Made by a program: the position numbers and the translations under genes. Of a stretch of DNA of 64,000 nt, positions 12,468-29,499 are shown piece after piece. This stretch comes from Paucibacter sp. B2R-40 (lineage in GTDB: Bacteria > Pseudomonadota > Gammaproteobacteria > Burkholderiales > Burkholderiaceae_C): NCBI RefSeq assembly GCF_025717555.1, contig NZ_JAJIRP010000001.1, positions 1 to 64,000 on the forward strand, read 5' to 3'. Each line of letters starts with the position of its first letter. Within the stretch, counting starts at the first letter, position 1. The notes below the pieces were generated by a model. It searched no databases. It was not told where the DNA came from and was given only the letters and a program-made list of their open reading frames with translations.

Positions 12468-14174
12468 TCAGGCCGCTGCCACCGCCGCTGCATGCAGATG
12501 CGCCGCGCCTTGATACCCTCTTGGCACCGCGCCCAACAACTTGCGCGTGTATTCCTGCTGAGGATGGGCCAGCAGCGCCTGCGTCTCGCTTTGCTCGACC
12601 ACATCGCCGTTCTGCATCACCAGCACTTCATCAGAGATGAACTTCACCACCGCCAGGTCGTGGCTGATGAAGACATAGCTGAGGCCGAATTCGTCCTGTA
12701 GATCCTTCAGCAGATTCAGCACCTGGGCCTGCACCGACACATCCAGCGCCGACACCGCTTCGTCCAGCACCAGCACCTCGGGGTTCAGCGTCAGGCAGCG
12801 TGCAATCGCGATACGCTGCCGCTGACCGCCGGAGAACTCGTGCGGGTACTTGTTCAGCACCGTGTCGTCCAGGCCGACCTTCTTCAGCAGGGCGCTGGCA
12901 CGCGCCAAGCGCTCGTCATGGTCCTTGCCGATCTTGTGAATCTCCATCGGCTCGACCAGGGTCTGGCCAATCGTGAAGCGCGGGTTCAGCGAGGCATAGG
13001 GGTTCTGGAACACCACCTGGATGCGGCGGCGCATCTTTTGCCAGTCGACGCCGTTCATCTTCAACAGGTCTTTGCCCTCGAACAGGACCTCGCCGCCGGT
13101 CGGCTCATGCAGGCGCAAGAGCGTCAGGCCCATGGTCGTCTTGCCTGAACCGGACTCGCCCACCACACCCAAGGTGTAGCCCTTGCGCAGCTTGAAGTTG
13201 ACCTCCTTGACGGCCTTGAACTCCTTCTTGCTGAACAGCCCGCTCTTGAAGAAGAAGCTCTTCTTCAGGCCGCGCGCTTCCAGAATCACCGGTGCGTTCG
13301 GGTCCTTGGCCTTGCCCAGGCCGGCGTTGACCGTCAGGCCGGCAATATGGTCGTCGATCACCATCAGGCGCGCCGGGTTCTCGGTCAGCGAGGGGCGGCA
13401 GGCCAGCAGTGCCTTGGTATAGCTGTCTTGCGGGTTGCTGAAGATCTCGGCCACCGGGGCCTTCTCGCGGATCTGGCCATGGCGCATCACCACCACCTGG
13501 TCGGAGATCTCGCCCACCACGCCCAGATCATGCGAGATGAACAGAAGAGCCATCTTGTGCGTCTCTTTGAGCTTGGCCATCAGCTCCATCACCTGGCGCT
13601 GAATCGTCACGTCCAGCGCCGTGGTCGGCTCGTCGGCGATCAGCAGCTTCGGGCTGCAGGCCAGCGCCACCGCAATCATCACGCGCTGCTGCTGGCCGCC
13701 CGACATCTCATGCGGATAGTTGCCCAGGCGGCGCTTGGGCTCGGGGATGCCGACCTCGTTGAGCAGCTCTTCGGCCCGCACCAGCGCTTGGCGTTTGCTC
13801 ATGCCCATATGCTTGATCAGCGGCTCCATGATCTGCGCGGCCACGGTGAACACCGGGTTCAGCGAGGTCATCGGGTCCTGGAACACGCAGGCAATGTCGC
13901 GGCCACGGATGGCCTGCAACTCGCGCAGCGTGCACTGGCGCAAGTCCTGACCCTGGAACAGGATCTTGCCTTCGCGCTCGGCGTTGTCCGGCAGCAGGTT
14001 GAGGATGGACATGGCCGTCACCGACTTGCCCGAGCCCGACTCGCCCACCAGCGCGACGGTCGAGTTCTCGGGGATGTCAAAGCTGATGCCCTTGACGGCC
14101 TGGGTGCGTTGCATTTCGCCGTTGACACGGCCCATGCGGAAAGAGACTTTTAAGTCTTGAATGGAGAGCAACAT
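12468..14174 (-). CDS. Fused double ATP-binding protein of an oligopeptide-type ABC transporter
   Basis: A 568-residue protein with two complete ABC ATPase domains, the arrangement of YejF and GsiA rather than separate DppD and DppF. Domain 1 has Walker A GESGSGKS (about 44-51), signature MSGGQQQRV and Walker B LLIADEP. Domain 2 has Walker A GESGSGKT (about 339-346), signature FSGGQRQRI and Walker B VLVLDEA. It energises import through the two permeases encoded just upstream. The ATG at 14174 lies 2 bases after the permease stop (14177), giving tight coupling. It is one half of the transporter that faces the seven binding-protein genes. Confidence 0.93.
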
Positions 14175-14176
14175 GC

Positions 14177-15229
14177 TTATTCCAGGCCTCTGAGTTTCGG
14201 GTCCAGCGCATCGCGCAAGGCATCGGTGAACAGCGCAAACGCGGTCACGAAGATGGCCATCAAGCCGGTCACGGCCGCCAACTGCCACCAGTAGCCGAGG
14301 ATCAGCTCGCTCTGCGACTCGCTCAGCATCGTGCCCCAGGAGACCTGGTCCACGCCGACGCCCAGGCCCAGATAGGACAGGATCACTTCGCTCTTGATGA
14401 AGCCCACCACATGCAGGGACAGCTGCACCAGCGCCACATGCGAGACGTTAGGCAAGATGTGTTTGAACATGCGCGAGTAACGCGAAGCGCCGATCGCTTC
14501 AGCGGCGCGCACATATTCGCGCACCGAATGCTTCATGAACTCGGCGCGGATCAAGCGGTAAATACCGGGCCAGCCGGCCAGACCCAGAATCATCACCACC
14601 GACATCACGCCGCGCCCGAAGATCACCGCAAACGCGAAGATCAGCAAGATGCTCGGGATGGCGGTGAAGACGTTGTAGAGCCACTCCAGGAAGTCGCCCA
14701 CGCGGCCGCCAAAGAAGCCCGACAGCGCACCCAGCACGACGCCAATGATGGTGGCCACCACGGCCGCCAACACGCCGACCAGAATCGACACCTCGGCACC
14801 CTTGATCGCCTTGGACATCACATCGCGGCCCAGCCGGTCGCCGCCCATCGGCAGCGTCTCGGCCTTGACCGTCACCTCGGTCTTGTAGGCCTTGGCGCGC
14901 TCTTCCCATTCCTTGTACTTCGGAGCGAGCGGATCGATATCGCTGAGGTCCACATTCGGGCCCTTGGGCGTTTGAATAGCGCTGGTCGCCTCGGCCGGGG
15001 CCGGGCCCATAAAGGTCGGCGGCGCATTCGGCACGCCGACTTCTTTTTGCCAGTTCTTGGCGATCAGCCCGGTGCTGGAGGCCACCACCATCAAGAGGAA
15101 GAAGCCGACGATGACCATGGACACCATGCCCACCTTGTCGGTGCGCAGCCGGCGCCAGGAAGCCGCCCAGACGCCTTCTGATTTGCCGGCCTTGGCCGGC
15201 GTTGCAGGAGTAGACAAGACCGCGCTCAT
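14177..15229 (-). CDS. Oligopeptide-type ABC transporter permease (DppC/YejE type)
   Basis: A 350-residue inner-membrane permease. After a cytoplasmic N terminus and one helix (MVSMVIVGFFLLMVVAS) there is a periplasmic insertion of about 100 residues, typical of the YejE/OppC branch. GGDRLGRDVMSKAIKGAEVS then leads into the five-helix core, and the ATPase-coupling EAA-like loop is EYVRAAEAIGASRYSRMFKHILPN. The gene is second in the operon, 43 bases after the other permease and 2 bases before the ATPase. The large periplasmic loop could matter for docking different binding proteins (inference). Confidence 0.92.
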   Translation of the reverse strand: MSAVLSTPATPAKAGKSEGVWAASWRRLRTDKVGMVSMVIVGFFLLMVVASSTGLIAKNWQKEVGVPNAPPTFMGPAPAEATSAIQTPKGPNVDLSDIDPLAPKYKEWEERAKAYKTEVTVKAETLPMGGDRLGRDVMSKAIKGAEVSILVGVLAAVVATIIGVVLGALSGFFGGRVGDFLEWLYNVFTAIPSILLIFAFAVIFGRGVMSVVMILGLAGWPGIYRLIRAEFMKHSVREYVRAAEAIGASRYSRMFKHILPNVSHVALVQLSLHVVGFIKSEVILSYLGLGVGVDQVSWGTMLSESQSELILGYWWQLAAVTGLMAIFVTAFALFTDALRDALDPKLRGLE

Positions 15230-15272
15230 TTCGCATCTCCGAAGCGGAATGCAACTGAAAAATTCTGGAGTT

Positions 15273-16211
15273 TCATTTCAGCACCACCCGCGGATCGACC
15301 AGTTTGTACAAGAGGTCGGTAATCAAATTCACCACCATGGTCAGGAAGGCGATGTAGATCGCAAAGGCCTGAATGACCGGGTAGTCACTGCGGTTCACCG
15401 CCAACAAGATCTCGCGGCCCAGGCCTGGGATGGAGAAGAAAACTTCCAACAAGAAACTGCCGACAAACACGCCCGGCAAAGCCACCGAGATATTCGTCAT
15501 GATCGGGATCATCGCGTTGCGCAAGACATGCTTGAGCAGGATGGTCGATTCGGTCATGCCCTTGGCGCGCGCGGTGCGCACATAGTCATGGCCAATCTCA
15601 TCGAGGAAGAAGGTGCGATACAAGCGCGTGTAAGGCGCTATCGCCACCGCCACGGCCACCATCACCGGCAGCGGGGCGTAGGTGGTCAGATTGGTCCAGA
15701 CGCTGTCGGTCCAGCCCTGCACCGGGAACCAGCCGAGGCGAAAAGCGAACACATATTGGCCGACGATCACATAAACCAGCAGCGAGATCGACACCGCCAC
15801 CGTGCTCAGAATCATCACTGTGCGGTCGGTCAGGCTGCCGCGCACCGAAGCCACGGCCAGCGCAAACGGGATCGCCAACACGATCTCGAAAAACAGAATC
15901 GGCAGCATCACGGTCAGCGTGGCCGGCAGGCGGCTGCTGAAGAGGCTGGCGACCGACTCATTGGTGGCCCAGCTCTTGCCCCAGTCAAAGGTCACGATCT
16001 GCTTGATGAAGATCCACAGCTGCTCCAGCACCGGCTTGTTCAGGCCCAGCTGCTCGCGGATTGCGTCGATCTGTTCGGCACTGGCGTTCAGGCCGCCGAG
16101 GATCTCGGCGGGATCACCGCCGAAGAACTTGAAAAGAAAAAACACCAGCAGCACGACACCGAGCAAGGTCGGGATCATTTGCCACAAGCGTCTGAATAGG
16201 TAGGCCAGCAT
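15273..16211 (-). CDS. Oligopeptide-type ABC transporter permease (DppB/YejB type)
   Basis: A 312-residue inner-membrane permease. It starts MLAYLFRRLWQMIPTLLGVV, the classic DppB/OppB first helix, and has the family's extracytoplasmic loop with GLNKPVLEQLWIF. The EAA-type coupling loop DYVRTARAKGMTESTILLKH precedes a conserved C terminus ending LYKLVDPRVVLK. It is the first gene of the transporter operon and diverges from the first of seven substrate-binding protein genes across a 306-base control region. Peptides, nickel complexes and other small ligands are known for this family. Confidence 0.92.
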   Translation of the reverse strand: MLAYLFRRLWQMIPTLLGVVLLVFFLFKFFGGDPAEILGGLNASAEQIDAIREQLGLNKPVLEQLWIFIKQIVTFDWGKSWATNESVASLFSSRLPATLTVMLPILFFEIVLAIPFALAVASVRGSLTDRTVMILSTVAVSISLLVYVIVGQYVFAFRLGWFPVQGWTDSVWTNLTTYAPLPVMVAVAVAIAPYTRLYRTFFLDEIGHDYVRTARAKGMTESTILLKHVLRNAMIPIMTNISVALPGVFVGSFLLEVFFSIPGLGREILLAVNRSDYPVIQAFAIYIAFLTMVVNLITDLLYKLVDPRVVLK

Positions 16212-16517
16212 CGCTGTTGGTTCTCCAAGAAATAAGACGTCGCAGATTCGACAAAATGCTCCCCCGCAGGCTGATGGCCCCAGGGTTTGCGAAAAGAAAA
16301 ACTGGCGCGAGTCTAGTCGACTTGGACGTGGCCGCTTACCGGGTTTTGCCCTCGCTCACCCTCAAGTTGCGGGGTCAGTTCGAGTAAATCTGAGGCAAGT
16401 TTCGAGAATTCAGGGGGGTTCAACCCCAACTTGCCCCAGGCGATGCCGTTTGCGCATAAGCGCAGACCGGTGCCAGGCACTAGACTGCGCGGCTCCCCAA
16501 GTCAGTGACGACAAGAA
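16212..16517. promoter_or_regulatory. Divergent control region with nested inverted repeats
   Basis: This 306-base gap separates the divergent permease and first binding-protein genes, so it must carry both promoters. I cannot place the promoters reliably. It holds an outer 8-bp perfect inverted repeat, GGCAAGTT (16394-16401) with AACTTGCC (16428-16435). This encloses an inner dyad, GGGGTT-C-AACCCC (16415-16427). The structure could be a regulator site or a leader-RNA stem in the binding-protein transcript. Confidence 0.45.
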
Positions 16518-18362
16518 ATGATGCGATCCACCCTGATGCGAGCCGCCGGCCTGGCCGCGCTGCTGGCTCTGAACTGCCTGCCCTCGCTGGCCCAAGAGGC
16601 GCCACCAGCCAAGGATGCCCAGCAGCCGCAGCCGAAAGTTCTTCGCTATGCCTTGCGCGCCGCCGAGACCGGATTCGACCCGGCGCAAATTTCCGACAGT
16701 TACTCGAAAGCAGTCGCGGCCGGCATTTTTGATGCGCCGCTGGAGTTCGAGTACCACGCCCGCCCGGCCAAGCTACGACCCAGCACCCTGGTCGCCATGC
16801 CCGAGGTCTCGGCCGACTTCAAGACCATGACCTTCGAGTTGAAGCCCGGCATCTTCTTCAACGACGACCCGGCCTTCGGCGGCAAAAAGCGCGAGCTGAT
16901 CGCCGCCGATTACGTCTATTCGATCAAGCGGCACTACGACCCACAGTGGAAGAGCTCCAATCTCTATCTGCTCGAGAACGTCAAGATTTTGGGCCTGTCG
17001 GAGTTGCGCAAGGAACTGATGGCAGCCAAGAAGCCGTTTGACTACGACCGCCCGGTCGAAGGCCTCAAAGTGCTCGACCGTTACCGCTTCCAGGTCAAGC
17101 TGGGCATCGGCGACCCCCGCTTCATCTACCAGTTTGCCGATGCCGGCTTCCTCGGGGCCGTGGCGCGTGAGGTGGTCGAGATGTACGGCAGCAAGATCAT
17201 GGAGCACCCGGTGGGCACCAATGCCTGGCGCCTGGGTGAATGGCGGCGCAGCTCGCAAATCGTGCTGGAAAAAAACCCCAATTACCGCGAAGTGCTTTAC
17301 GCCGAGAGCGCGCCCACCGACAACCCGGCCCTGGCCGCCCAAGTCGCCAAGTTGCAAGGCCGGCGCCTGCCCATGGTGGACCGGGTCGTGATCGCCATCA
17401 TCGAGGAGCCGCAGCCGCGCTGGCTGTCCTTCCTGAATGGCGAGAAGGACGTGATCGAGGAAGTGCCGGCCGACTTCGCCACCATCGCCATGCCCAACAA
17501 CAAGCTGGCACCCAATCTGGCCAAGCGCGGCATACAGATGACGCGCTACCCGCGCGCCGATGTGGCCTTCACCTATTTCAATATGGAAGACCCGGTCATC
17601 GGCGGCTACACGCCAGAGAAAATCGCGCTGCGCCGCGCGATCTCGCTGGGCTCGGACGTCGACAAGCAGATCCGACTGGCGCGCCGCGGCCAGGCCCTGC
17701 CATCGCAGGGCCCCATCTCGCCGGGCACTTTCGGCTTCGACGCCAATTTCAAGTCTGAGATGGGCGAATACAACCTGGCCAAAGCCAAGGCCCTGCTGGA
17801 CCTGTACGGCTATGTCGACAAAGACGGCGACGGCTGGCGCGATCAACCGGACGGTTCGGCCCTGAAGCTGGAATACGCGACCCAGCCCGACAGCACCAAC
17901 CGCCAGCTCAATGAGCAATGGCAGCAGACCATGAATGGGCTGAAGATCCGCATCAAGTTCAAAACCGCCAAATGGCCGGAGAACCTCAAGTCGGCCAATG
18001 CCGGCAAGCTGCAGATGTGGGGCGTGTCCTGGGTTGCCACCGCGCCCGATGGCGACACCTTTTTGGCGCTCGGCGACGGCGGCGCCAAGGGCAAGGCAAA
18101 CAAGGCTCGCTTCGATCTGCCCGCCTTCAACGCGCTCTATCAAAAGCAAAAAGCGCTACCCGATGGCCCCGAGCGAGAAGCCGTGATGGCCGAGGCCGCC
18201 AAGCTGATGGTGGCCTATATGCCCTACAAGATGGAGGTGCACCGCGTCTTCACCGACATGGCCCATCCCTGGGTGCTCGGCTACAACCGCAATGTTTTTG
18301 TGCGTGACTTCTGGAAATACCTGGACATTGACACCGAGGCCTTGAAGCGCGGCGGCTCATGA
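16518..18362 (+). CDS. Family 5 ABC substrate-binding protein, array member 1
   Basis: A 614-residue exported SBP_bac_5 protein. The Sec signal peptide spans about residues 1-25 (cleavage near SLA-QE) with no lipobox, so it is a soluble periplasmic protein. The mature part starts with the array hallmark KVLRYALRAAETGFDPAQ and continues with DDPAF-GGKKREL, HPVGT, WRRSSQIVLEKNPNYR, the Asp-rich loop VDKDGDGWRD and AKWPENLK. Length matches YejA/HbpA-type proteins (about 600). It is most like member 2: both share PNNKLAPNLAK, GPISPG and a VRDFWKY C-terminal end. It is separated by 160 bases from member 2, so unlike the others it may have its own transcript end. The ligand is unknown; peptide-like compounds are most likely by family. 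Confidence 0.92.
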   Translation: MMRSTLMRAAGLAALLALNCLPSLAQEAPPAKDAQQPQPKVLRYALRAAETGFDPAQISDSYSKAVAAGIFDAPLEFEYHARPAKLRPSTLVAMPEVSADFKTMTFELKPGIFFNDDPAFGGKKRELIAADYVYSIKRHYDPQWKSSNLYLLENVKILGLSELRKELMAAKKPFDYDRPVEGLKVLDRYRFQVKLGIGDPRFIYQFADAGFLGAVAREVVEMYGSKIMEHPVGTNAWRLGEWRRSSQIVLEKNPNYREVLYAESAPTDNPALAAQVAKLQGRRLPMVDRVVIAIIEEPQPRWLSFLNGEKDVIEEVPADFATIAMPNNKLAPNLAKRGIQMTRYPRADVAFTYFNMEDPVIGGYTPEKIALRRAISLGSDVDKQIRLARRGQALPSQGPISPGTFGFDANFKSEMGEYNLAKAKALLDLYGYVDKDGDGWRDQPDGSALKLEYATQPDSTNRQLNEQWQQTMNGLKIRIKFKTAKWPENLKSANAGKLQMWGVSWVATAPDGDTFLALGDGGAKGKANKARFDLPAFNALYQKQKALPDGPEREAVMAEAAKLMVAYMPYKMEVHRVFTDMAHPWVLGYNRNVFVRDFWKYLDIDTEALKRGGS

Positions 18363-18394
18363 CTTGGGGTTCTACTGCATGGCGGGCAAGCTCG

Positions 18395-18418: not shown

Positions 18419-18522
18419 GCCGGCTGACCGACAAGAGGACGCTGACGGTTCTTTGGCAACCATTGCGCGCCGGGCCCACAAGGTCGCCGGCGCGTTTGTT
18501 TGATAAAGCAAGGAGTTTCATC

Positions 18523-20337
18523 GTGGCGCGACCCTGGGCGGCAATCCTGCTGTGCGTGGCATTTCCCTGGCTGGCGGCCAGCCACGCGCTGGCCGAGCCT
18601 GAGTCCGAGCCCAAGGCGCAGCCCAAAGTGCTTCGCTATGCCTTCCGCATCGCCGAAACCGGCTTCGACCCCGCGCAAATCTCCGACCTTTATTCGCGCA
18701 TCATTGCCGGCGGCATTTTTGATGCGCCCTTGCAGTTCGAATACCTGGCCCGCCCGGTGCGCCTGCAAGCGGCCACGGCCGAAGCGCTGCCCGAAATCTC
18801 GGCCGACTTCAAAACGCTGACATTCCGCATCAAGCCCGGCATTTACTTCAATGACGACCCGGCTTTCGAGGGTAAAAAGCGCGAGCTGACGGCGGGCGAC
18901 TACGTCTATTCGCTCAAGCGCCATTTCGACCCGCGCTGGAAAAGCCCCAATCTCTATCTGTTCGAAATTGCACGCATCCCCGGCTTGAACGAGTTACGCC
19001 GCGAGGCCCTCCAGCACAAGACGCCATTCGATTACAAGCGCCCCGTTGCCGGCTTGACGCTGATCGACCGCTACACCTTCCAGGTCCACACCGAGGCCGG
19101 CGACCCGCGCTTCGTCAACCATTTTGCCGACCCTTCCACCATGGGCGCGGTCGCGCATGAGGTGGTGGAGCGCTATAGCGACAAGATCATGGACCACCCG
19201 GTCGGCACCGGCGCCTGGGCGCTGAGCGAGTGGCGGCGCAGCTCCCGCATGGTGCTGGAGAAGAACCCCAATTACCGCGATGTGCGCTATGACGAACAGC
19301 CGCCCACCGACAACGCGCGACTGCTGGCGCAAGCCGCGCAGCTGAAGGGCCGCAAGCTGCCGATGATTGACCGGGTCGAAATCGCCATCATCGAAGAGAA
19401 CCAGCCGCGCTGGCTGTCCTTTTTACAGCGCGAGTCCGATATGGTCGAGGAAGTGCCGGCGGAGTACGCGCCCATCGCCTTTCCCAACAACAAATTGGCG
19501 CCCAATCTGGCCAAGATGGGTCTGCAAATGGTGCGTTATGCGCGCGCCGATGTGGCGATTTCCTACTTCAATATGGAAGACCCGACGGTCGGCGGCAACA
19601 CGCCGGCCAAGATTGCGCTGCGTCGCGCAATTGCACTGGCCATCGACGTTGACAAGGAAATTCGCCTGCCCAGGCGCGGCCAGGCGATTGCCGCGCAAGG
19701 GCCGATCAGCCCGGGCGTGTTCGGCTTCGACCCCTCCCTCAAGACCAGCATGAGCGAGCATGACATCGCCCGCGCCAAGGCCCTGCTCGATCTGTACGGT
19801 TATGTCGATGCCGACGGTGACGGCTGGCGCGATCAACCCGACGGCAGCCCTTTGACGATCGAATACGCGACCGAGCAAGACGGCGAGAAGCGCGGCTTGG
19901 CCGAGCTGTGGCAAAAAGCCATGGATGCGATCAATGTGCGCATCAAGTTTCGCCACGCCAAATGGCCGGAAAACCTGAAGGCCGCCACCGCCGGCAAGCT
20001 GATGATGTGGGGCGTAGGCTGGAGCGCCGCCTCGCCCGACGGCGACACTTTTTTGGCGCTGGGCTATGGACCCAACAAGGGCCAGGCCAACAAGGCCCGC
20101 TTCGATTTGCCGGCCTTCAACGCCTTGTACGAAGAGCAAAAGAAACTGCCCAACGGCCCCGAGCGCTTGAGGCTGATGACCGAAGCGCAAAAGCTGATGG
20201 TCGCCTATATGCCCATCAAGCTGCATGTGCACCGCGTCTATACCGACATCTTGCAGCCCTGGGTGATCGGCTATGACCGCAACGCCTTTGTGCGCGATTT
20301 CTGGAAATACATTGACATCGACAAGAGCGTGCCCTGA
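18523..20337 (+). CDS. Family 5 ABC substrate-binding protein, array member 2
   Basis: A 604-residue exported protein, closest to member 1. The GTG start at 18523 is chosen because AAGGAG lies 7 bases upstream and the signal peptide then begins directly (ARPWAAILLCVAFPWLAASH); an upstream TTG at 18463 would add 20 non-signal residues. Hallmarks are KVLRYAFRIAETGFDPAQ, DDPAFEGKKREL, HPVGTGAW, WRRSSRMVLEKNPNYR, the VDADGDGWRD loop, AKWPENLK and a terminal VRDFWKYIDID. There is no lipobox. Its stop is 1 base before the start of member 3, so it begins a tightly packed run of six genes. Confidence 0.92.
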   Translation: MARPWAAILLCVAFPWLAASHALAEPESEPKAQPKVLRYAFRIAETGFDPAQISDLYSRIIAGGIFDAPLQFEYLARPVRLQAATAEALPEISADFKTLTFRIKPGIYFNDDPAFEGKKRELTAGDYVYSLKRHFDPRWKSPNLYLFEIARIPGLNELRREALQHKTPFDYKRPVAGLTLIDRYTFQVHTEAGDPRFVNHFADPSTMGAVAHEVVERYSDKIMDHPVGTGAWALSEWRRSSRMVLEKNPNYRDVRYDEQPPTDNARLLAQAAQLKGRKLPMIDRVEIAIIEENQPRWLSFLQRESDMVEEVPAEYAPIAFPNNKLAPNLAKMGLQMVRYARADVAISYFNMEDPTVGGNTPAKIALRRAIALAIDVDKEIRLPRRGQAIAAQGPISPGVFGFDPSLKTSMSEHDIARAKALLDLYGYVDADGDGWRDQPDGSPLTIEYATEQDGEKRGLAELWQKAMDAINVRIKFRHAKWPENLKAATAGKLMMWGVGWSAASPDGDTFLALGYGPNKGQANKARFDLPAFNALYEEQKKLPNGPERLRLMTEAQKLMVAYMPIKLHVHRVYTDILQPWVIGYDRNAFVRDFWKYIDIDKSVP

Positions 20338-20338
20338 G

Positions 20339-22186
20339 ATGAACTGCCCCACCACCCTGTTCAAGCGCAGCTTGATGCGCTGCGCCCTGGCGCTGCTTGG
20401 CTTGGCCCCGCTGCAAGCTGGCGCCGCGCCGCAGCCGCCGGCGGTGCAGGCCGCGCCATCCAATCAGTCCGCGCATGTCTTGCGTTATGCCTTTCCGATC
20501 GCCGAGACCGGCTTTGACCCCGCACAAATTGCCGACGAATACTCCAGCATCATCGCGTCCAATATCTTCGAGGCGCCGCTGACCTACGACTATCTGGCGC
20601 GCCCAATCCAGCTCAAAGGGCTGACCGCCGAAGGGCCGCTGGAGGCTAACGCCGACTTCACCGTGTTCACGCTGAAAATCAAGCCCGGCATCTACTTTGC
20701 TGACGACCCGGCCTTCAAGGGCAAGCCCCGCGAGTTGACGGCGGCTGATTACGTCTACGCCATCAAGCGCAACTTTGATCCACGCTGGAAGAGCCCCAAC
20801 TTTGCCGCCCTGCAGGGCGAGAAGATGCTGGGCCTGGACCAGCTGCGCGAAGCCGCCACCAAGGGCGGCAAGCCTTTTGACTACGACCGCCCGGTGGAGG
20901 GCTTGCAAGCACTCGATCGCTACACGCTGCGCATCAAGCTGGAACAGCCCAATCCACGCTTTGCCCACAATCTGGCCCACCTCTCGGCGGCAGCCGTGGC
21001 GCGCGAGGTGGTCGAGCTTTACGGCGACCAGATCATGGCCCATCCGGTCGGCACCGGCCCCTTCAAACTGAGCGACTGGCGCCGTAGCTCGCGCATGGTG
21101 CTGGCCAAGAACCCGCAGTTCCGGGAGAGCTATTACGACGAGCACCCCAACGCCGACGACGCCGCCGGCCAAGCCATCGCCCAACAAATGAAGGGCCGCC
21201 GCCTGCCGCTGCTGGACCGGGTCGAGGTGTCCATCGTCAGCGAGTCGCAGCCGCTGTGGCTGGCCTTTCTGGGCGATGAGTTCGATCTGATCGCCGTGCC
21301 CTACGCCTATGTGGGCCTGGCGGCGCCGGGCGGCAAGCTTGCCCCCCATCTGGCCAAGCGCGGCATGAATCTGCACAAAATGCCCTTGTCCGACCTGGTC
21401 TTCACCTACTTCAATATGGCCGACGCTATGGTGGGGGGCTACACGCCAGAGCGCGTGGCGCTGCGCCGCGCCATTGCCCTGGCCTATGACAACGAGGAGG
21501 AGATCCGCCAGCTGCGCAAGCGCCTGGCCGTCCCCGCGCAAGGCATTGTGGTGCCCAATACCTTCGGCTACCAGGCCGACTTCAAGACCGAGATGAGCGA
21601 GCACAGTCCGGCCAAGGCGCGCGCCTTGCTGGATTTGTACGGCTATGTCGACAAGGACGGCGACGGCTGGCGCGACCAACCCGATGGCAAACCGCTGGTG
21701 CTTGAGTTCCATACCCAGCCCGACCATGACTCCCGTCAATACAACGAGTTATGGAAAAAGCATATGGATGCGATCGGCGTGCGCATCGAGTTCAAGGCCG
21801 CCAACTGGCCGGAGCAATTGAAGATGGCGCGCGCCGGCAAGCTGATGATGTGGATGTTGAGCCAGACGGCGACCAAGCCGGACGCCCAGGATCTGCTGGC
21901 CATGGGCTATGGGCCGTCGATCGGCGAAGACAATCTGGTGCGCTTCGAGTTACCTGAGTACGACCGCTTGTTCGAGCAAATCAAGGCCTTACCCGATGGC
22001 CCCGAGCGGCAGGCTTTGATCCAGCGGGCGCTGCGTCTGCTGACCGTCTATATGCCGATGAAGGCCCATGTCCACCGCATCAGCCTGCGCCTGACCCAGC
22101 CTTGGGTACAGGGCTATCAACCCCATCCTTTCCTGCTCGGCTTCTGGCGTTTTGTCGACAGCACACCGCCGGCCAAACAACCATGA
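20339..22186 (+). CDS. Family 5 ABC substrate-binding protein, array member 3
   Basis: A 615-residue exported protein starting MNCPTTLFKRSLMRCALALL. The signal peptide is probably cleaved after AGA near residue 29. Hallmarks are VLRYAFPIAETGFDPAQ, DDPAFKGKPREL, HPVGTGPF, WRRSSRMVLAKNPQFR and VDKDGDGWRD. It differs from members 1 and 2 in the central ALAYDNEEEIRQLRKRLAVP segment and in AANWPEQLK instead of AKWPENLK. In the former it resembles member 7. The start overlaps nothing but is 1 base after the previous stop, and its own stop overlaps the next ATG by 4 bases. Different ligand-contact regions on a common frame suggest a different ligand (inference). Confidence 0.92.
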   Translation: MNCPTTLFKRSLMRCALALLGLAPLQAGAAPQPPAVQAAPSNQSAHVLRYAFPIAETGFDPAQIADEYSSIIASNIFEAPLTYDYLARPIQLKGLTAEGPLEANADFTVFTLKIKPGIYFADDPAFKGKPRELTAADYVYAIKRNFDPRWKSPNFAALQGEKMLGLDQLREAATKGGKPFDYDRPVEGLQALDRYTLRIKLEQPNPRFAHNLAHLSAAAVAREVVELYGDQIMAHPVGTGPFKLSDWRRSSRMVLAKNPQFRESYYDEHPNADDAAGQAIAQQMKGRRLPLLDRVEVSIVSESQPLWLAFLGDEFDLIAVPYAYVGLAAPGGKLAPHLAKRGMNLHKMPLSDLVFTYFNMADAMVGGYTPERVALRRAIALAYDNEEEIRQLRKRLAVPAQGIVVPNTFGYQADFKTEMSEHSPAKARALLDLYGYVDKDGDGWRDQPDGKPLVLEFHTQPDHDSRQYNELWKKHMDAIGVRIEFKAANWPEQLKMARAGKLMMWMLSQTATKPDAQDLLAMGYGPSIGEDNLVRFELPEYDRLFEQIKALPDGPERQALIQRALRLLTVYMPMKAHVHRISLRLTQPWVQGYQPHPFLLGFWRFVDSTPPAKQP

Positions 22187-24030
22187 ACAAACTTCAACTA
22201 TTGCGGCGCCGAGGGCTCACGGCGCTGATTTCGCTGCTCGGCCTGAGCGCAGGCCTGTGCTTCGCCAACCCGGCCCAACCTAGCGCAAGCACAAGCGACA
22301 GCGGGCCCAAAGTGCTGCGCTATGCCTTCCGGGTGTCCGAGACCGGCTTTGACCCTGCCAAGGTCACCGACATCTATTCGCGCATCGTCACCTCGCATAT
22401 CTTCGAAGGCCTCTACACCTATGACCATCTGGCCCGGCCAGCCAAGCTCAAGCCCTTGACGGCGGCCGCCTTGCCCGAGGTCAGCGCCGACTTCAAGACC
22501 TGGACGATTCGCATCCAGCCCGGCATCTACTTTGCGGACGACCCGGCCTTCAAGGGTAAAAAGCGCGAGCTGACCGCCGCCGACTATGTCTATTCCTTCA
22601 AGCGTTTTGCCGACCCTTTTACCAACAGCCCGACCTGGGACGGCCTGGAAGAGAACCATCTCTTGGGCTTGAACGAATACCGCGCACAAGTACAAAAGAG
22701 CAAGCAGCCCTTTGATTACGACAAACCTATCGAAGGCTTGCGCGCGCTTGATCGCTACACCCTTCAAATCAAGCTGGGCAAATCCCGGCCGCGCTTTGAC
22801 CAGAACTTGGCCGACGGGAGCCTGCTTGGCGCGGTGGCGCGCGAGGTGATCGAAGCCTACCCGGAGCACAGCAGCGAGCATCCGGTCGGCACCGGACCCT
22901 TCCAGCTGGCCTCTTGGCGGCGCAGCTCGCAGATCAATCTGGACAAAAATCCCGGCTACCGGGAGCGCTACTACGATGCCGAACCGAACGCCGACGACGC
23001 CGAGGGTCAGGCTTTGCTAGCGCGCTTCAAGGGCCGACGCATCCCGATGATCGACCGGGTGGAGGTCGCCATCATTGAAGAAAATCAGCCGCGCTGGCTG
23101 TCCTTTTTAGACGGACAGTTCGATCTGCTGGACCGCACGCCCGAGGACTTCATCAACCAAGCGATGCCGGGTGGCAATTTGGCGCCGAATCTGGTCAAGA
23201 AAGGCATACAGAGTTTTCGCGTCGTGACGCCGGACGTGTTGTTCACCGTTTTCAATCTGGAAGACCCGGTCGTCGGCGGCTATAGCCCAGAGCGCGTGGC
23301 GCTGCGCCGGGCCATCTCGCTGGGCACCGACTCAGAGCGCGAAATTCGCATCGTGCGGCGCGGCCAAGCGATCAGCGCGCAGTCCATCATGCTGCCGCAC
23401 ACGACAGGGTATGACGCCAGCTTCAAGAGCGAGAGCGGCGAGTACGACCCGGCCAAGGCCAAGGCCTTGCTGGACCTGTATGGCTTTATTGACCGCGACG
23501 GCGACGGCTTTCGCGAGCAGCCCGACGGCAGCCCGCTGGTGCTGGAAAGCCTGACCACGCCCGAGCAGTTCCAGCGCCAGATTGACCAGATCTGGCAAAA
23601 ATCACAGGCCGCCATCGGCATCAAGGTGCAGTTCAAGACCGCCAAATGGCCGGAGAACCTCAAGGCCATGCGCGCCGGCAAGTTCCAGATCTGGTCGCTG
23701 GCCAGTTCGGCCGCCGCGCCGGACGGGCAAGATGCGCTGGGCTTTTTCTTCAGCGAGCGCATTGGCGGGCAAAATTACGCGCGCATCAATTTGAAGTCGC
23801 TCGATGAGCTGTACAACCAAACCAACGCCTTGCCCGACGGGCCCGAACGACTGGCCCTGTTCACCGAGTTGAAGCGCCTGGGCGCAGCTTATGCGCCCTA
23901 CCGCCCACGCGGCCACCGCATCATCACCGACCTGGCGCACGCGCAGCTGCTCGGTTATCGGCGGCCACAGTTTTGGTTGAATTTTTGGGAATATGTGGAC
24001 GTCGATGAGCGTCTGCGCCGGGTCAAATAA
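22183..24030 (+). CDS. Family 5 ABC substrate-binding protein, array member 4
   Basis: A 615-residue exported protein. The start MNKLQLLRRRGLTALISLLG overlaps the previous stop (ATGA). The signal peptide contains an Arg-Arg-Arg stretch but also a strong Sec-like core; cleavage is likely near CFA-NPA. It groups with members 5 and 6: FKRFADP, AMPGGNLAPNLVKKGIQ, MLPHTTGYD and a C-terminal RRPQFWLNFWEYVDVDE. The Asp-rich loop reads IDRDGDGFRE. AKWPENLK and WRRSSQINLDKNPGYR are kept. No lipobox. Eleven bases separate it from member 5. Confidence 0.92.
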   Translation: MNKLQLLRRRGLTALISLLGLSAGLCFANPAQPSASTSDSGPKVLRYAFRVSETGFDPAKVTDIYSRIVTSHIFEGLYTYDHLARPAKLKPLTAAALPEVSADFKTWTIRIQPGIYFADDPAFKGKKRELTAADYVYSFKRFADPFTNSPTWDGLEENHLLGLNEYRAQVQKSKQPFDYDKPIEGLRALDRYTLQIKLGKSRPRFDQNLADGSLLGAVAREVIEAYPEHSSEHPVGTGPFQLASWRRSSQINLDKNPGYRERYYDAEPNADDAEGQALLARFKGRRIPMIDRVEVAIIEENQPRWLSFLDGQFDLLDRTPEDFINQAMPGGNLAPNLVKKGIQSFRVVTPDVLFTVFNLEDPVVGGYSPERVALRRAISLGTDSEREIRIVRRGQAISAQSIMLPHTTGYDASFKSESGEYDPAKAKALLDLYGFIDRDGDGFREQPDGSPLVLESLTTPEQFQRQIDQIWQKSQAAIGIKVQFKTAKWPENLKAMRAGKFQIWSLASSAAAPDGQDALGFFFSERIGGQNYARINLKSLDELYNQTNALPDGPERLALFTELKRLGAAYAPYRPRGHRIITDLAHAQLLGYRRPQFWLNFWEYVDVDERLRRVK

Positions 24031-24041
24031 CGAGCAAGCAC

Positions 24042-25862
24042 GTGAATTTAAGAACTTTTTTGTTGAGCGCAACATTTGCATCACTGGCTGCGATCTTGAT
24101 ACCGGCGCGGGCCGAGACCGATGTAACGCCACCGCCCGCCAAGGTTTTGCGTTATGCCTTCCAGATTGCCGAGACCAGCTTTGATCCCTCTCAGCTCAGC
24201 GATATTTATTCGCGCATCGTCACCGCCGGCATATTTGAAGCGCTCTATCGCTACGACCATCTGGCACGGCCGGTGCAAATCAAGCCTTTGGTGGCAGCTG
24301 CCATGCCGGAGATGTCGGAAGACTTCCGCAGCTTCACCATCAAGATCCAGCCCGGCATCTACTTCGCCGCCGACGCCGCCTTCAAGGGTAAAAAGCGCGA
24401 GCTGACCGCGCAGGACTTTGTCTACAGCTTCAAACGTTTTGCGGACCCGGCCTTGAAGAGCCCGGGCTGGAGTTCGCTGGAAGAGGCCGATCTGGTCGGG
24501 ATGGCGGCCCTGCGCAAACAGGCCCTCGACGGTAAGAAGTCCTTCGATTACGACAAGGACATCGAAGGCCTGCGGGCACTGGATCGCTACACCCTCCAAT
24601 TCAAAACGGTCAAACCACGCCCTCGCTTGATCGAGACCATCCTGACAGGCAGCGACCTTTATGGCGCGCTGGCCCGCGAGGTGGTCGAGCACTACGGCGA
24701 CAAGATCGGCGAGCACCCGGTCGGCACCGGGCCGTTCAAACTGGGCGAATGGCGGCGCAGCTCACGCATCGTGCTGGAGAGAAACCCCGACTACCGCGAG
24801 CGCTTCTACGACGCCGAGGCCGCGCCGGGCGATGCCGAAGGCTTGGCGATGCAAGAGCAATTCAAGGGCCGGCGCATTCCGATGCTGGACCGGGTAGAGA
24901 TCGCCATCATCGAAGAGGTGCAGCCGCGCTGGCTGTCCTTCTTGAATGGCGAACAAGACTTTCTGGAACGCGTGCCGGCCGAGTTCATCAGCCAAGCCAT
25001 GCCCAAGGGCAAGGTCGCGCCGAATTTGGCCAAGAAGGGCGTGCAGGGCTTTCGCATTGTGGGGCCAGATGTGGGCCTGACGACCTTCAATATGGATGAC
25101 CCGATCGTGGGCGGCATGGCGCCGGAAAAGATTGCGCTACGCCGCGCCATCAGCTTGGCGATTGATGTGCCGCGCGAGATCAATCTGGTGCGGCGCGGCC
25201 AGGCGGTGCAAGCACAGTCGCCGATGGTGCCGCACACGACCGGCTACTCCGTCGACTACAAATCCGAAACCGGCGACTATGACCCGGCCCGGGCCAAGGC
25301 CTTGCTCGATCTGTACGGCTATGTGGACGCCGACGGCGATGGCTGGCGGGACTTGCCCGATGGCAAACCGTTGCTGCTGATTCGCAACACCCAGCCCGAC
25401 AATGCCTCACGCCAGCTCGACGAGCTGTGGCAGAAGAACCTCAGCGCCATCGGCATCAAAACCCAGTTCAAGACGGCCAAATGGCCCGAGAACCTCAAAA
25501 GCGCGCGCGGTGGAAAATTCATGATTTGGGGCGTGGCGTCCTCCGCCTCCCAGCCCGATGGGCAGAGCGCTTTGCAGCGCCTGTATGGGCCGGCCTCGGG
25601 CGGGCAGAACTTGGCGCGCTTCAAGCTGGCCGAGTTCGACAAGCTCTACGATCAAATGGCCGCCATGCCCGACGGCCCCGAGCGCGAGGCGCTGCTGTTG
25701 CAGGCCAAGCGCATGGCCACCGCCTATATGCCCTACAAGCAACACACCCACCGCATCTTGACCGATATGGCGCAAGCCTCGGTGCAGGGCTACCGCAGGC
25801 CCTTGTTCTGGCAGGACTGGTGGCAGTATGTGGACATTGACGAAAGTAGAAAGCCGAAGTGA
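24042..25862 (+). CDS. Family 5 ABC substrate-binding protein, array member 5
   Basis: A 606-residue exported protein with a GTG start; the first residues (NLRTFLLSATFASLAAIL) are a Sec signal peptide ending near ARA-ET. It belongs to the member 4/5/6 subgroup: FKRFADP, AMPKGKVAPNLAKKGVQ, MVPHTTGY and RRPLFWQDWWQYVDIDE. The Asp-rich loop reads VDADGDGWRD, and HPVGTGPF, WRRSSRIVLERNPDYR and AKWPENLK are conserved. Its stop overlaps the GTG of member 6 by 4 bases. No lipobox and no internal damage are seen, so all domains appear functional. Confidence 0.92.
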   Translation: MNLRTFLLSATFASLAAILIPARAETDVTPPPAKVLRYAFQIAETSFDPSQLSDIYSRIVTAGIFEALYRYDHLARPVQIKPLVAAAMPEMSEDFRSFTIKIQPGIYFAADAAFKGKKRELTAQDFVYSFKRFADPALKSPGWSSLEEADLVGMAALRKQALDGKKSFDYDKDIEGLRALDRYTLQFKTVKPRPRLIETILTGSDLYGALAREVVEHYGDKIGEHPVGTGPFKLGEWRRSSRIVLERNPDYRERFYDAEAAPGDAEGLAMQEQFKGRRIPMLDRVEIAIIEEVQPRWLSFLNGEQDFLERVPAEFISQAMPKGKVAPNLAKKGVQGFRIVGPDVGLTTFNMDDPIVGGMAPEKIALRRAISLAIDVPREINLVRRGQAVQAQSPMVPHTTGYSVDYKSETGDYDPARAKALLDLYGYVDADGDGWRDLPDGKPLLLIRNTQPDNASRQLDELWQKNLSAIGIKTQFKTAKWPENLKSARGGKFMIWGVASSASQPDGQSALQRLYGPASGGQNLARFKLAEFDKLYDQMAAMPDGPEREALLLQAKRMATAYMPYKQHTHRILTDMAQASVQGYRRPLFWQDWWQYVDIDESRKPK

Positions 25863-27685
25863 AGATTGAACGAAGTTTGATGCGCGCTGCGCTACTTGTA
25901 TTGCTGAGCCTGCAGGCAGCGCTGGCCCCGGCTGCCGAAACCCTGGCAGCAAGCCCAGCGCCCAAGGTCCTGAAATACGCCTTCTTGATCGCCGAGACCG
26001 GCTTCGACCCGGCGCAGACCAGCGACACCTATTCGCAGACCGTCACCTCGCATATCTTCGAGGCACTCTATGCCTATGACTATCTGGCCGACCCGGCCAA
26101 GGTGCGGCCGCTGACGGCGGCCGCGATGCCGGAGGTCTCGCCCGACTTCAAGACCTGGACGGTCAGCATCAAGCCGGGCATCTTCTTCACGGATGACCCC
26201 GCCTTCAAAGGCAAGCCACGCGAGCTGGTGGCGGCCGACTATGTCTACACCTTCAAGCGCTTTGCCGACCCGGCGACCAAGAGTCCGACCTGGAACGCCA
26301 TCGAAGAGATGGGGTTTGTGGGCTTGAAGGAGCTGCGCGAACAAGCGCTCAAGTCGAAAAAACCGTTTGATTACGAATACGAGATCGAGGGGCTGCGCGC
26401 GCTCGACCGCTACACGATTCAGTTCAAACTCAAGCATGGCCGGCCGCGCTTCGCCTACGGCCTGGCGCAAAGTGCGCGCTCCGGCGCGGTGGCACGCGAA
26501 GTGGTCGAAGCCTATGGCTCAGACATCAGCGCACACCCGGTCGGCACCGGCCCTTTTGTACTGAAGGATTGGCGACGCAGCTCGCGCATCGTGCTGGAAA
26601 AGAACCCCGCTTACCGGGAGCGTTATTACGAGGCCGAGCCGGCCGCAGACGATGCCGAGGGTCAGGCCTTGCTGGCGCGCTTCAAGGGCCGGCGTATCCC
26701 GATGATTGACCGGGTCGAGATCGCCATCATCGAGGAGTCGCAGCCGCGCTGGCTGAGCTTTGTCGGCGGCGAGCATGACTTTCTTGACCGCGTGCCGCCC
26801 GACTTCGTCAATATCGCTCTGCCCAAGGGCAAGGTCGCTCCCAATCTGGCCAAGCAGGGAATCCAGCTGTTCCGGGTGATGGGCGCCGAGAGCGCTTTTA
26901 CCTTCTTCAATATGGAAGACAAGACGCTCGGCGGCTACAGCGCCGACAAGGTCGCGCTGCGCCGCGCGATCTCGCTGGCCATCGACATCAAGCGCGAAAT
27001 AAATGGCGTGCGGCGCGGCCAGGCGGTGCCGGCGCAGTCGATGATAGTGCCGCATACCTCGGGCTTCGATACAAGCTTCAAGAGCACGAACAGCGACTTC
27101 GATGTGCCGCGCGCGCTGGCCTTGCTCGATCTGTATGGCTATGTCGACAAAGACGGCGACGGCTGGCGTGATATGCCGGACGGCTCGCCCTTGGTGATCG
27201 AGGTGGCGACCCAGCCGGACGCGCTGTCCCGTCAATATGACGAGTTATGGAAGCGCAACTTCAACAATGTGCAGATACGCAGCAACTTCTTCCATGGCAA
27301 ATGGCCGGAGCAATTGAAGCAGGCGCGCGCCGGCAAGCTGATGCTGTGGACGCTGGCCGACACCGCCAACTCGCCCGACGGCATCGACCAGATGCTGCGC
27401 TTTTACAGCCCGGCGATTGGCGCACGCAATTACGCCCGCTTCAGGTCGGCCGAGTTCGACGCAATCTACGACAAACTGCAAGTCTTGCCCGACGGACCCG
27501 AGCGCGAGGCGCTGTTCCTGCAGGCCAAGCGCATCCAGGCCGCAATCGTGCCGGAGAAGACCAATGTGCACCGCATCGTCAACGACATGGCCCAGCCTTG
27601 GTTGATCGGCTACCGGCGGCCGCTGTTTCGCTACGAGTTCTGGCATTTTGTCGACATTGACGAGAACCTGAGGAAGCCACGGTGA
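25859..27685 (+). CDS. Family 5 ABC substrate-binding protein, array member 6
   Basis: A 608-residue exported protein with a GTG start overlapping the previous stop (GTGA). The Sec signal is KIERSLMRAALLVLLSLQAA. Hallmarks are KVLKYAFLIAETGFDPAQ, DDPAFKGKPREL, FKRFADP, HPVGTGPF, WRRSSRIVLEKNPAYR and VDKDGDGWRD. AKWPENLK is replaced by GKWPEQLK, and the C terminus is RRPLFRYEFWHFVDIDE. It groups with members 4 and 5. The stop overlaps the start of member 7 by 4 bases, so translation is likely coupled. Confidence 0.92.
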   Translation: MKIERSLMRAALLVLLSLQAALAPAAETLAASPAPKVLKYAFLIAETGFDPAQTSDTYSQTVTSHIFEALYAYDYLADPAKVRPLTAAAMPEVSPDFKTWTVSIKPGIFFTDDPAFKGKPRELVAADYVYTFKRFADPATKSPTWNAIEEMGFVGLKELREQALKSKKPFDYEYEIEGLRALDRYTIQFKLKHGRPRFAYGLAQSARSGAVAREVVEAYGSDISAHPVGTGPFVLKDWRRSSRIVLEKNPAYRERYYEAEPAADDAEGQALLARFKGRRIPMIDRVEIAIIEESQPRWLSFVGGEHDFLDRVPPDFVNIALPKGKVAPNLAKQGIQLFRVMGAESAFTFFNMEDKTLGGYSADKVALRRAISLAIDIKREINGVRRGQAVPAQSMIVPHTSGFDTSFKSTNSDFDVPRALALLDLYGYVDKDGDGWRDMPDGSPLVIEVATQPDALSRQYDELWKRNFNNVQIRSNFFHGKWPEQLKQARAGKLMLWTLADTANSPDGIDQMLRFYSPAIGARNYARFRSAEFDAIYDKLQVLPDGPEREALFLQAKRIQAAIVPEKTNVHRIVNDMAQPWLIGYRRPLFRYEFWHFVDIDENLRKPR

Positions 27686-29499
27686 GAGCCGCTCGGCGTC
27701 GCAGTTTTCTGACCCAGAGCGCCGCGCTGGCGAGCACGTACTGGCTGCATTCACCAGTGGCTGCCGCAGACAGCGGCAAGAAGGAGAAGAAGAAAGTCCT
27801 GCGCACCGCCTTCAACTCGGCCGAGGTCGGGTTCGATTTGCCGCAGGTATCGGACCAGACTTCGGTCACGGTAGCCTCGCATATCTTTGAGCCCCCGCTG
27901 ACCTATGACTATCTGGCCCGCCCGGCGGTCTTGAAGCCGCTGACGGCGGCCAGCCTGCCCGAGGTGTCGGACGACCACAAGCATTTCATCTTCACGATCC
28001 GGCCCGGCATCTTCTTCAGCGATGACCCCGCCTTCAAAGGCAAGCAGCGCGAGCTGGTGGCCGAGGACTATGTCTTCAGCATCAAACGCTTTTACGATCC
28101 GCGCATCAAGACCGAACATCTCTACCAGTTCGAAACGGCCAAGGTCCTGGGCCTGTCGGAGCTGCGCAATGAGGCACTGAAGAGCAAAAAGGCCTTCAAC
28201 TACGACAAGCCGGTGGCGGGCTTGCGCGCGCTCGACCGCTATCGCTTCGAGGTCCGGCTGGGCGCGCCCGACCCCCGATTTGCGCATTTGTTTGCCAACA
28301 GCAGCTACACCTCGGCGGTCGCCCGCGAGGTGCTTGAGGCCTATGGCGACGAAATTGCGGCGCACCCGGTCGGCACCGGGCCGTTTCGGCTGAAGAGCTG
28401 GCGGCGCAGCTCGCTGATCGTGCTGGAGCGCAACCCGCACTTTCGCGAGCAGCTTTTTGAAAGCGTCGGCCCGCCGGCCGGGCATGCGCAGGCCGAAGAC
28501 GTAGGACGTTACCTAGCTGGTAAGAAGCTGCCGCTGTTGGATGAGGTTCACATCAGCATCATCACCGAAAGCCAACCGCGCTGGCTGGCCTTTGCAGGTG
28601 GTGACCTTGATCTGGTGGAGATGCCCGTCACCGTAGCGCACTTGGCCGTGCCCAAGGGTCAACTGGCGCCAAATCTGAAGAAACTGGGCGTGCAGGCCTT
28701 CGAGTCGCATGGCGCCGACATTTCCTTCAGCTACTTCAATCTGGAGGATCCTCAGATTGGCGGCTACACGCCCGAGCGCGTGGCGCTGCGCCGTGCCATC
28801 GTGCTGGCCTATGACAACGCCGAGGAAACTCGGCTGGTTTTGCACGGTCAGGCCTTGCCTGCCCAATCGATGCTGCCCTCACTGATCTATGGCCATCAGC
28901 CCGAGCTGCGCAGCGAAGCCGGCATCAGCGACCCGCTGCGTGCGCAGGCGCTGCTGGACCTGTATGGCTATGACAAACGCGACGCCGAAGGCTACCGTTT
29001 GCACCCCGACGGCAGCCCCCTGACCTTGCGCCGCGCCGGCCGGGAGGGCGCGGCCGATCGGGCTTCGCATGAGCTCTGGAAGAAGCGCATGGACGCGGTT
29101 GGCTTGCGCATGCAATTCGAGACCGCCACCTTCGGCGAGCTGATCAAAAAGTCCTTGGCCGGTCAGCTGATGATCTGGGGCTATGTGTGGGACCTGAGTG
29201 CGCCGGATGGCGACTTTTTGCTCGGGATGGGCTATGGGCCGAATGCCGGCCAGTCCAACGATGCGCGCTTTCAGTTGTCCGCCTACGATCGCCTGTACGA
29301 GCGCCAGCGCCTGTTGCCCGATGGGCCTGAGCGGCTCGCTGTAATGCACCAGGCCACGCGGCTGATGCTGGCCTATCTGCCTTATCACCCGCACAACTAT
29401 CCCATCCGCGTCGATATGTGCAGCGCCCAGGTGCGCGGCTATCTGCGGCATCCGTTCACGCGGGATCGTTGGCGTTTCGTCGATATTATCGAGACATAA
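27682..29499 (+). CDS. Family 5 ABC substrate-binding protein, array member 7 (divergent, Tat-like signal)
   Basis: A 605-residue exported protein with a GTG start overlapping the previous stop. Its N terminus RAARRRSFLTQSAALASTYW has a twin-arginine motif (RRSFL) before a modest hydrophobic stretch, unlike the clear Sec signals of the others, so export through Tat is plausible. It keeps DDPAFKGKQREL, HPVGTGPF, WRRSSLIVLERNPHFR and LPDGPERLAV. The Asp-rich loop is degenerate (DKRDAEGYR), and the AKWPENLK motif is lost (ATFGELIK). The ALRRAIVLAYDNAEE segment links it to member 3. It is the last and most divergent of the array; it may bind a cofactor-like or folded ligand (inference). Confidence 0.9.
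   Translation: MRAARRRSFLTQSAALASTYWLHSPVAAADSGKKEKKKVLRTAFNSAEVGFDLPQVSDQTSVTVASHIFEPPLTYDYLARPAVLKPLTAASLPEVSDDHKHFIFTIRPGIFFSDDPAFKGKQRELVAEDYVFSIKRFYDPRIKTEHLYQFETAKVLGLSELRNEALKSKKAFNYDKPVAGLRALDRYRFEVRLGAPDPRFAHLFANSSYTSAVAREVLEAYGDEIAAHPVGTGPFRLKSWRRSSLIVLERNPHFREQLFESVGPPAGHAQAEDVGRYLAGKKLPLLDEVHISIITESQPRWLAFAGGDLDLVEMPVTVAHLAVPKGQLAPNLKKLGVQAFESHGADISFSYFNLEDPQIGGYTPERVALRRAIVLAYDNAEETRLVLHGQALPAQSMLPSLIYGHQPELRSEAGISDPLRAQALLDLYGYDKRDAEGYRLHPDGSPLTLRRAGREGAADRASHELWKKRMDAVGLRMQFETATFGELIKKSLAGQLMIWGYVWDLSAPDGDFLLGMGYGPNAGQSNDARFQLSAYDRLYERQRLLPDGPERLAVMHQATRLMLAYLPYHPHNYPIRVDMCSAQVRGYLRHPFTRDRWRFVDIIET

Follow-up and report, generated by a model that had tools for sequence, protein, structure and literature searches.

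We analyzed a 64,000-nucleotide (nt) stretch of the genome of Paucibacter sp. B2R-40 (contig NZ_JAJIRP010000001.1, positions 1 to 64,000; referred to here as the window). In it, seven consecutive plus-strand genes for solute-binding receptors stand opposite one divergent ATP-binding cassette (ABC) transporter encoded on the minus strand. On the whole we think it probable, if far from certain, that the locus encodes a multi-receptor importer that descends from an oligopeptide importer and has been retooled for peptides or peptide-like ligands that are bound without a grip on a free N terminus. The gene arrangement itself, seven intact, mutually alignable family 5 binding proteins facing a single transporter, is as described in an earlier note on this sequence (the original prediction).

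Seven intact receptors in one gene run

Seven open reading frames (ORFs) on the plus strand between positions 16518 and 29499, S1 to S7, all exceed the Pfam cutoff for SBP_bac_5 (184 to 218 bits versus 32.4; E values of 7e-54 to 4e-64). Their pairwise identities are 46 to 67%, and none of the seven is broken. Their likeliest starts give proteins of 605 to 615 amino acids, close to the 604 to 615 previously proposed. The common sequence frame that had been claimed for all seven holds in part: in the alignment, HPVGT and WRRSS are present in 7/7, but LRYA becomes LKYA in S6 and LRTA in S7, DPAF becomes DAAF in S5, and PDGPER becomes PNGPER in S2. Because of the family E values and the conservation of the receptors in relatives, described below, a chance origin of the seven-receptor observation is excluded.

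S1 to S7 represent, in this order, orthogroups A to G. S1 (16518..18362) belongs to the group that comes first after the transporter in all 15 arrays of the genus, the window counted, that have both on one contig. The start of S2 (18496..20337) is uncertain and may be at 18496 or 18523. No member of the group of S3 (20339..22186) was found in the five nearest congeners, but seven others have one. S4 (22183..24030) and S5 (24042..25862) are taken up below as the copy with signs of exchange and the copy whose structure was modeled, respectively. S6 (25859..27685) was assigned by Pfam and the tree, and S7 (27682..29499) is the most divergent copy (46 to 48% identity). The junctions from S1 to S7 measure 133, 1, −4, 11, −4, and −4 bases, with 4-base overlaps at three of the six. 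Because these junctions are tiny or overlapping from S2 onward, S2 to S7 at least look like one transcription unit.

Export signals were judged by eye. Those of S1 to S6 resemble Sec signals, and the RRRGL of S4 is not a match to the twin-arginine translocation (Tat) consensus. S7, unlike its six neighbors in the window, has a twin-arginine (Tat-type) signal, RRRSFL, in its signal region (27682 to 27800). Twin arginines are present in nine of the 10 members of its orthogroup, and the tenth has Lys-Arg. In other species, some members of the other orthogroups have Tat-like signals as well.

One translocator per genome

The OppB-type permease (E ≤ 1e-80) and the receptors (E ≤ 1e-100) were searched for in 59 genomes, the window's own and 58 relatives. 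The receptor scan scored up to 22 candidates per genome, and copies of at least 430 amino acids were counted; seven receptor fragments below this length, which come from contig ends or from fetches that overlap, were left out. The permease was found in 25 genomes, with exactly one copy in each, and receptors were found in 26 genomes, with one to seven in each. Transporter and receptors co-occur in 25 of the 26 receptor-bearing genomes, the exception being a genome that is 76% complete. In the window's own genome there are 12 SBP_bac_5 matches and only three OppB-like permeases (E ≤ 1e-8); therefore, a dedicated transporter of this class for each of the seven receptors is excluded. The original prediction had proposed one transporter for many receptors and had named dedicated transporters for most copies elsewhere in relatives as evidence to the contrary; these counts support the proposal and did not turn up that contrary evidence. 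As judged from gene content, many receptors with one channel is a well-supported description, and the sharing of one translocator by all seven receptors would be its simplest explanation.

Seven is the highest confirmed count. The genome of the window (G000) and genomes G003 and G005 each have seven receptors in one array; G024 has six together and a seventh elsewhere, and G001 has six and, where contigs end, two further pieces. Outside this panel of genomes the receptors are widespread. Receptors of this type are present in all 17 congeners searched and, in a sample of 250 genomes of the family, in 91. (The latter scan scored five candidates per genome, which makes its copy numbers lower bounds, and only presence was used.) A scan of named genomes with the permease alignment yielded 80 permease loci. 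In 72 of these there is at least one receptor or partial receptor, always divergent from the transporter, and within the stretches covered each of these loci has between one and five, with an additional partial receptor in one case. Loci with two to five receptors occur in Roseateles, Paucibacter, Pelomonas, Methylibium, Rhizobacter, Rubrivivax, and Ideonella. The remaining eight loci have no receptor, and two of them stop at a contig edge.

Counts of eight copies in G003 and G005 were considered and ruled out, as the gap in the array is occupied by a gene for a CHASE4-GGDEF diguanylate cyclase. Such genes lie at L005:2896-4458 (minus strand) and L008:8049-9608 (plus strand), and the product is a possible ligand-sensing partner. 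In four loci with no adjacent receptor (L067, L078, L086, and L089) a match to the GGDEF domain only (36 to 41%) occupies an equivalent position, at about 6.6 to 7.2 kb and roughly 3 kb ahead of the permease.

The position of the cyclase gene between the first and second receptors in two congeners would fit an array that serves sensing as much as uptake, with some receptors signaling to membrane sensors and not to the transporter. The Dpp system of Pseudomonas aeruginosa is likewise said to double as a chemosensor (PMC12728205). However, among the loci compared, full-length relatives of the cyclase are confined to L005 and L008, six other loci match the GGDEF domain alone, and receptors and transporter occur together in 25 of the 26 receptor-bearing genomes. 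We consider a sensing array quite unlikely.

Four other SBP_bac_5 genes in the window's own genome (two of them in tandem; contigs C47, C23, and C45; loci L038 and L039) are on contigs without an OppB-like permease. A receptor remnant of about 131 residues, a C-terminal part with an internal stop, lies far from the array (C50:44648-45040, minus strand; L037). At L101:6198-9770 (minus strand), an open frame of about 1,190 codons apparently spans two receptor domains and could be a fusion or a missed stop. A search for viral copies of the permease gave one weak partial match (38% over 66 residues).

Age, selection, and exchange of the receptors

When 107 receptors were placed in one tree, each of the window copies belonged to a different monophyletic orthogroup (support of 0.97 to 1.0), and each orthogroup was present in 5 to 17 genomes. 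Copies cluster by orthogroup, not by species. The order of the orthogroups is nearly fixed among arrays; in G004, G007, G009, and G015, a copy related to the group of S5 precedes the group of S4 instead of following it (support of the wider clade, 0.411). Recent amplification was ruled out because orthologues cluster across species and no two paralogues of the window are identical over more than 32 consecutive nt.

Ratios of nonsynonymous to synonymous divergence (dN/dS), calculated as pairwise Nei-Gojobori counts between window copies and their orthologues, were 0.08 to 0.18 in groups A, B, D, E, F, and G and 0.21 to 0.34 in group C (S3). All are well below 1, and the relaxed selection that was to be looked for under the original prediction did not appear. 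S4 and its G003 orthologue are 94 to 99% identical in the mature part and 73% identical in the signal region; the other five window/G003 pairs are 77 to 98% identical per 50-codon block past the signal region. S4 looks like a recent interspecies exchange of one receptor, in which the mature part was probably exchanged with the G003 lineage.

Given the old divergence and the purifying selection, seven long-separate orthologues would point to a split of the ligand spectrum and not to dosage. We give little probability to dosage or to neutral birth and death, in which the genome tolerates surplus copies and these are gained and lost with no division of labor. Copy numbers of one to seven in relatives, the one remnant in the window's own genome, and one probable allele exchange would be expected from such turnover, but the age of the paralogues, their near-constant order, the group-specific residues described below, and the low dN/dS ratios would not.

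Ligand anchor residues and fold

In the dipeptide receptor DppA, R383 and D436 form salt bridges with the ends of the dipeptide (PMC12136057), and an aspartate (Asp) that docks the amino group of the peptide is characteristic of Gram-negative oligopeptide-binding proteins (PMC5736914). In our profile alignment, R383 and D436 of DppA correspond to T450 and S503 of S5. The D436 column matches the Asp of the DppA Gly-Asp-Asn motif in solved structures (roles from PMC12136057 and PMC12728205). The D436 equivalents in S1 to S7 are Thr, Ala, Thr, Ala, Ser, Asn, and Ser, and the R383 equivalents are Thr in S1 to S6 and Gly in S7; neither set of residues is that of DppA. The OppA-type Asp for the amino terminus is present in 0/7 of the window receptors, as read from the alignment to DppA and not to OppA itself. 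Around the lost Asp position we saw group-specific residues, and a strict filter for such positions (within-group value of 0.9, at least four states) returned only 11 positions and no clear map.

A model of S5 built from 95 sequences had a mean predicted local distance difference test (pLDDT) value of 95.2, and its eleven best PDB matches in Foldseek are receptors for peptides, dipeptides, murein peptides, or glutathione. Nickel, opine, and sialic acid receptors have the same fold, however, and so the fold is no proof of a peptide ligand. The locus might thus encode a nonpeptide importer of the same ABC class, for an opine, a glycan, or a metal chelate, perhaps tied to neighboring alpha-glucan genes. 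The fused ATPase of the transporter scores above the cutoffs of nickel (NikD and NikE) and staphylopine (CntD and CntF) models, though also above that of one dipeptide subfamily model; its best NCBIfam models, GsiA and YejF, are both scored under cutoff. Two genes that we named glycosidase-like by reading their sequences flank the transporter in the window. Such flanks are present only beside L001, L005, and L041, that is, in the two genomes G001 and G003, so the linkage is uninformative and a functional tie to alpha-glucan use was dropped. Since related operons also encode a peptidase, we regard a nonpeptide importer as improbable.

Loss of the aspartate and the ancestral system

An order-level sample contained 64 positive genomes among 299, and a further 40 permease neighborhoods were taken, 38 of them from outside the window's family. 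Of these loci, 27 encode a single receptor (L139 also has a weak 98-bit ORF, which was omitted); two receptors are encoded at three loci, three at five loci, and none at the remaining five. The receptors are divergent from the transporter in L128, L139, L140, and L146 and codirectional with it in the other receptor-bearing loci. The usual motif at the Asp site is W-x-A-D-Y-P-D-G.

A joint tree was built from 155 receptors. The Asp is present in 49/49 receptors outside the array clade, and 97 of the 106 inside it are nonacidic at this position. Because the sequences are not independent events, the parsimony count is the number that matters: the Asp state requires 5 changes on the tree, versus a mean of 45.5 and a minimum of 37 in 200 shuffles. 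Loss of the Asp in the array clade maps to essentially one branch. The sister of this clade (support of 0.855) is one of three f23 receptors; it has lost the Asp, and its two f23 neighbors retain it. By this placement, f23 represents the intermediate state. The f10 pair, single receptors that are divergent and Asp-less, joins the receptors of the window's own family (support of 0.987).

An M3 peptidase is encoded in or beside the operon in 12 of the 40 loci and in three of five loci fetched earlier from outside the genus. (The family call is by Pfam for two and by similarity for the rest.) Two of these peptidases, read by eye, begin with a signal peptide. Within the stretches covered, no M3 peptidase was found in the 80 named-genome loci or in the fetched family arrays (tblastn, E ≤ 1e-15). 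Because the peptidase stands beside related operons and was not found at the arrays, and because the Asp is kept outside the clade, the system was probably at first a peptide importer equipped with an exported peptidase, and a receptor that had lost the amine anchor probably gave rise to the arrays. The original suggestion of peptides as ligands therefore fits the ancestral system, which looks like a peptide importer, better than it fits S1 to S7, which have lost the conserved anchor for the peptide N terminus.

Comparison with known importers

In P. aeruginosa, dppA1 to dppA4 adjoin dppBCDF and dppA5 lies elsewhere; DppA1 to DppA4 have distinct measured ligand profiles, and DppA5 bound nothing (PMC12728205, PMC4206461). 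Like the window, this system has a set of paralogous cluster C receptors and a single transporter, and four of the receptor genes adjoin the latter. It differs from the window in its separate DppD and DppF, in receptors that have the Asp of Gly-Asp-Asn, and in having four adjacent receptors versus seven. Borrelia burgdorferi combines five OppA proteins with two pairs of permeases and a single pair of ATPases (PMC5736914). Multiple paralogous receptors with one ATPase pair are common to Borrelia and the window, but in Borrelia the genes are spread over the chromosome and plasmids, receptors are independently regulated, and OppA4 retains the Asp, whereas the window has a single gene run and one permease pair. 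With these two studied precedents, the claim that multi-receptor importers of this kind were undescribed is not supported. The combination typified by DppA1 to DppA5, several intact paralogous receptors with one cognate transporter per genome, is also that of the window, and by analogy the present system would work as the DppA1-A5 and OppA1-A5 importers do. To judge from the sequences, it is set apart from these precedents by a single run of seven receptors, by the fusion of its ATPase, and by the loss of the Asp. In the literature searched, a partial coverage with most subscription papers outside it, we found no importer of this class with seven receptors.

YejABEF of Escherichia coli and the alphaproteobacterial YejA1A2BEF and YejBEF-YepA systems resemble the window in having a receptor of about 600 amino acids and a fused double ATPase, but they have one or two receptors according to the abstracts. 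In YejA, the bound peptide contacts Asp476 (PMC10924461). The window proteins score below the NCBIfam cutoffs for YejB (135.5 versus 445 bits), YejE (103.6 versus 439 bits), and YejF (545 versus 834 bits), and no YejA model matched. Scores against the DppA equivalog are 50 to 82 bits versus a cutoff of 1,005, and the ATPase is fused versus the separate DppD and DppF. Membership in Yej or Dpp was ruled out by these cutoffs and by the residues. Other operons of the Burkholderiales (e.g., L033, L125, L132, and L134) share with the window orthologous permeases and fused ATPase and a homologous receptor; they differ in having mostly one receptor, which has the Asp, in running mostly in one direction, and in having an M3 peptidase in about one-third of cases.

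The locus could also be a plain broad-range importer of nutrient peptides like P. aeruginosa Dpp, its receptors having slight preferences among ordinary peptides and the loss of the Asp only shifting the binding register. The distinct profiles measured for Dpp are a precedent (PMC12728205), and the M3 peptidase of related operons is in keeping with it. In Lactococcus lactis OppA, a side chain in the middle of the peptide is anchored in a hydrophobic pocket that takes the place of the Asp (PMC5736914); loss of the Asp thus need not end peptide binding, and an importer of ordinary peptides keeps weight for this reason. However, DppA1 to DppA5 are described as all retaining Gly-Asp-Asn (PMC12728205), whereas S1 to S7 are without the equivalents of both D436 and R383, and the peptidase was not found at array loci at the tblastn threshold given above. 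We judge a broad-range importer to be unlikely, if less so than the other alternatives discussed.

Proposed mechanism

The retooled multi-receptor importer that we favor would belong to the peptide/opine/nickel class of ABC importers. Its single translocator, built from the OppB- and OppC-type permeases and the fused double ATPase, would serve seven interchangeable receptors in the periplasm, probably the products of one operon. Each receptor would take up its own range of ligands in the periplasm and then dock on the common translocator. The set derives from a single oligopeptide receptor; on the tree (support of the joining node, 0.855), one duplicate lost the Asp and became the ancestor of the arrays, that of the window included. 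The ligands would most likely be peptides or peptide-like compounds bound without a grip on a free N terminus, such as cyclic or N-blocked peptides, longer peptides held mid-chain in the manner reported for L. lactis OppA, or small ligands of another kind. A more specific version is that a lineage of Burkholderiales lost the amine-gripping Asp once and then expanded to as many as seven specialized receptors, one of them Tat exported, that feed one channel with ligands without a free N terminus (N-blocked, cyclic, or nonribosomal peptides and peptide-like metabolites). We put this version forward tentatively, with more doubt than belief.

Several observations weigh against the favored mechanism. 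Loss of the Asp is not absolute: inside the array clade, six receptors (f1 copies) have Asp at the position in question and three have Glu. Two residues upstream of that position, S7 has an Asp that is retained in eight of the 10 receptors of orthogroup G, and this residue might substitute. The R383 equivalent is also missing outside the clade, where there is one Arg among 48 receptors; because related single-receptor systems lack it too, the Asp alone separates the two sets. In G004, G009, G024, and G056, one copy sits apart from the array. Six loci with full flanks (L063, L067, L078, L086, L089, and L106; mostly Sphaerotilus and Leptothrix) have the transporter without an adjacent receptor; four of their genomes have one receptor elsewhere, one has two, and one has none. 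The dN/dS ratios are simple pairwise counts at dS values of 0.15 to 1.15, and the lower Foldseek matches of the S5 model include the nickel, opine, and sialic acid receptors.

The loci form a natural series around one translocator: at one end stands a single receptor that has the Asp and often a peptidase beside it, and at the other stand seven receptors without the Asp. With this series, one can trace on a tree, and test, how a textbook ligand anchor was lost and how the ligand range of a receptor was later divided. If unusual peptides are indeed the ligands, it would show how environmental bacteria scavenge such peptides.

Transporter genes and promoter region

The three transporter genes are on the minus strand. 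The fused double ATPase (12468..14174; 568 amino acids) has two ABC_tran domains (Pfam, 225.6 bits in two stretches) and an oligo_HPY tail; its start was taken at complement 14174, and the listed ORF of 606 amino acids begins upstream of that start. The OppC-type permease (14177..15229; 350 amino acids) matches BPD_transp_1 and OppC_N, and the OppB-type permease (15273..16211; 312 amino acids), the one that is single copy in all 25 positive genomes, matches BPD_transp_1 and BPD_transp_1_N. By Pfam, two BPD_transp_1 permeases together with ABC_tran ATPases that have an oligo_HPY tail place the transporter among the peptide/opine/nickel ABC importers.

Between the OppB-type permease gene and S1 lies the divergent promoter region (16212..16517). 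Read by eye, both promoters carry the element ACTAGACT-(C)GCGC, on opposite strands, and a common regulator or sigma factor is possible. Both copies of the element are retained in five of six aligned species.

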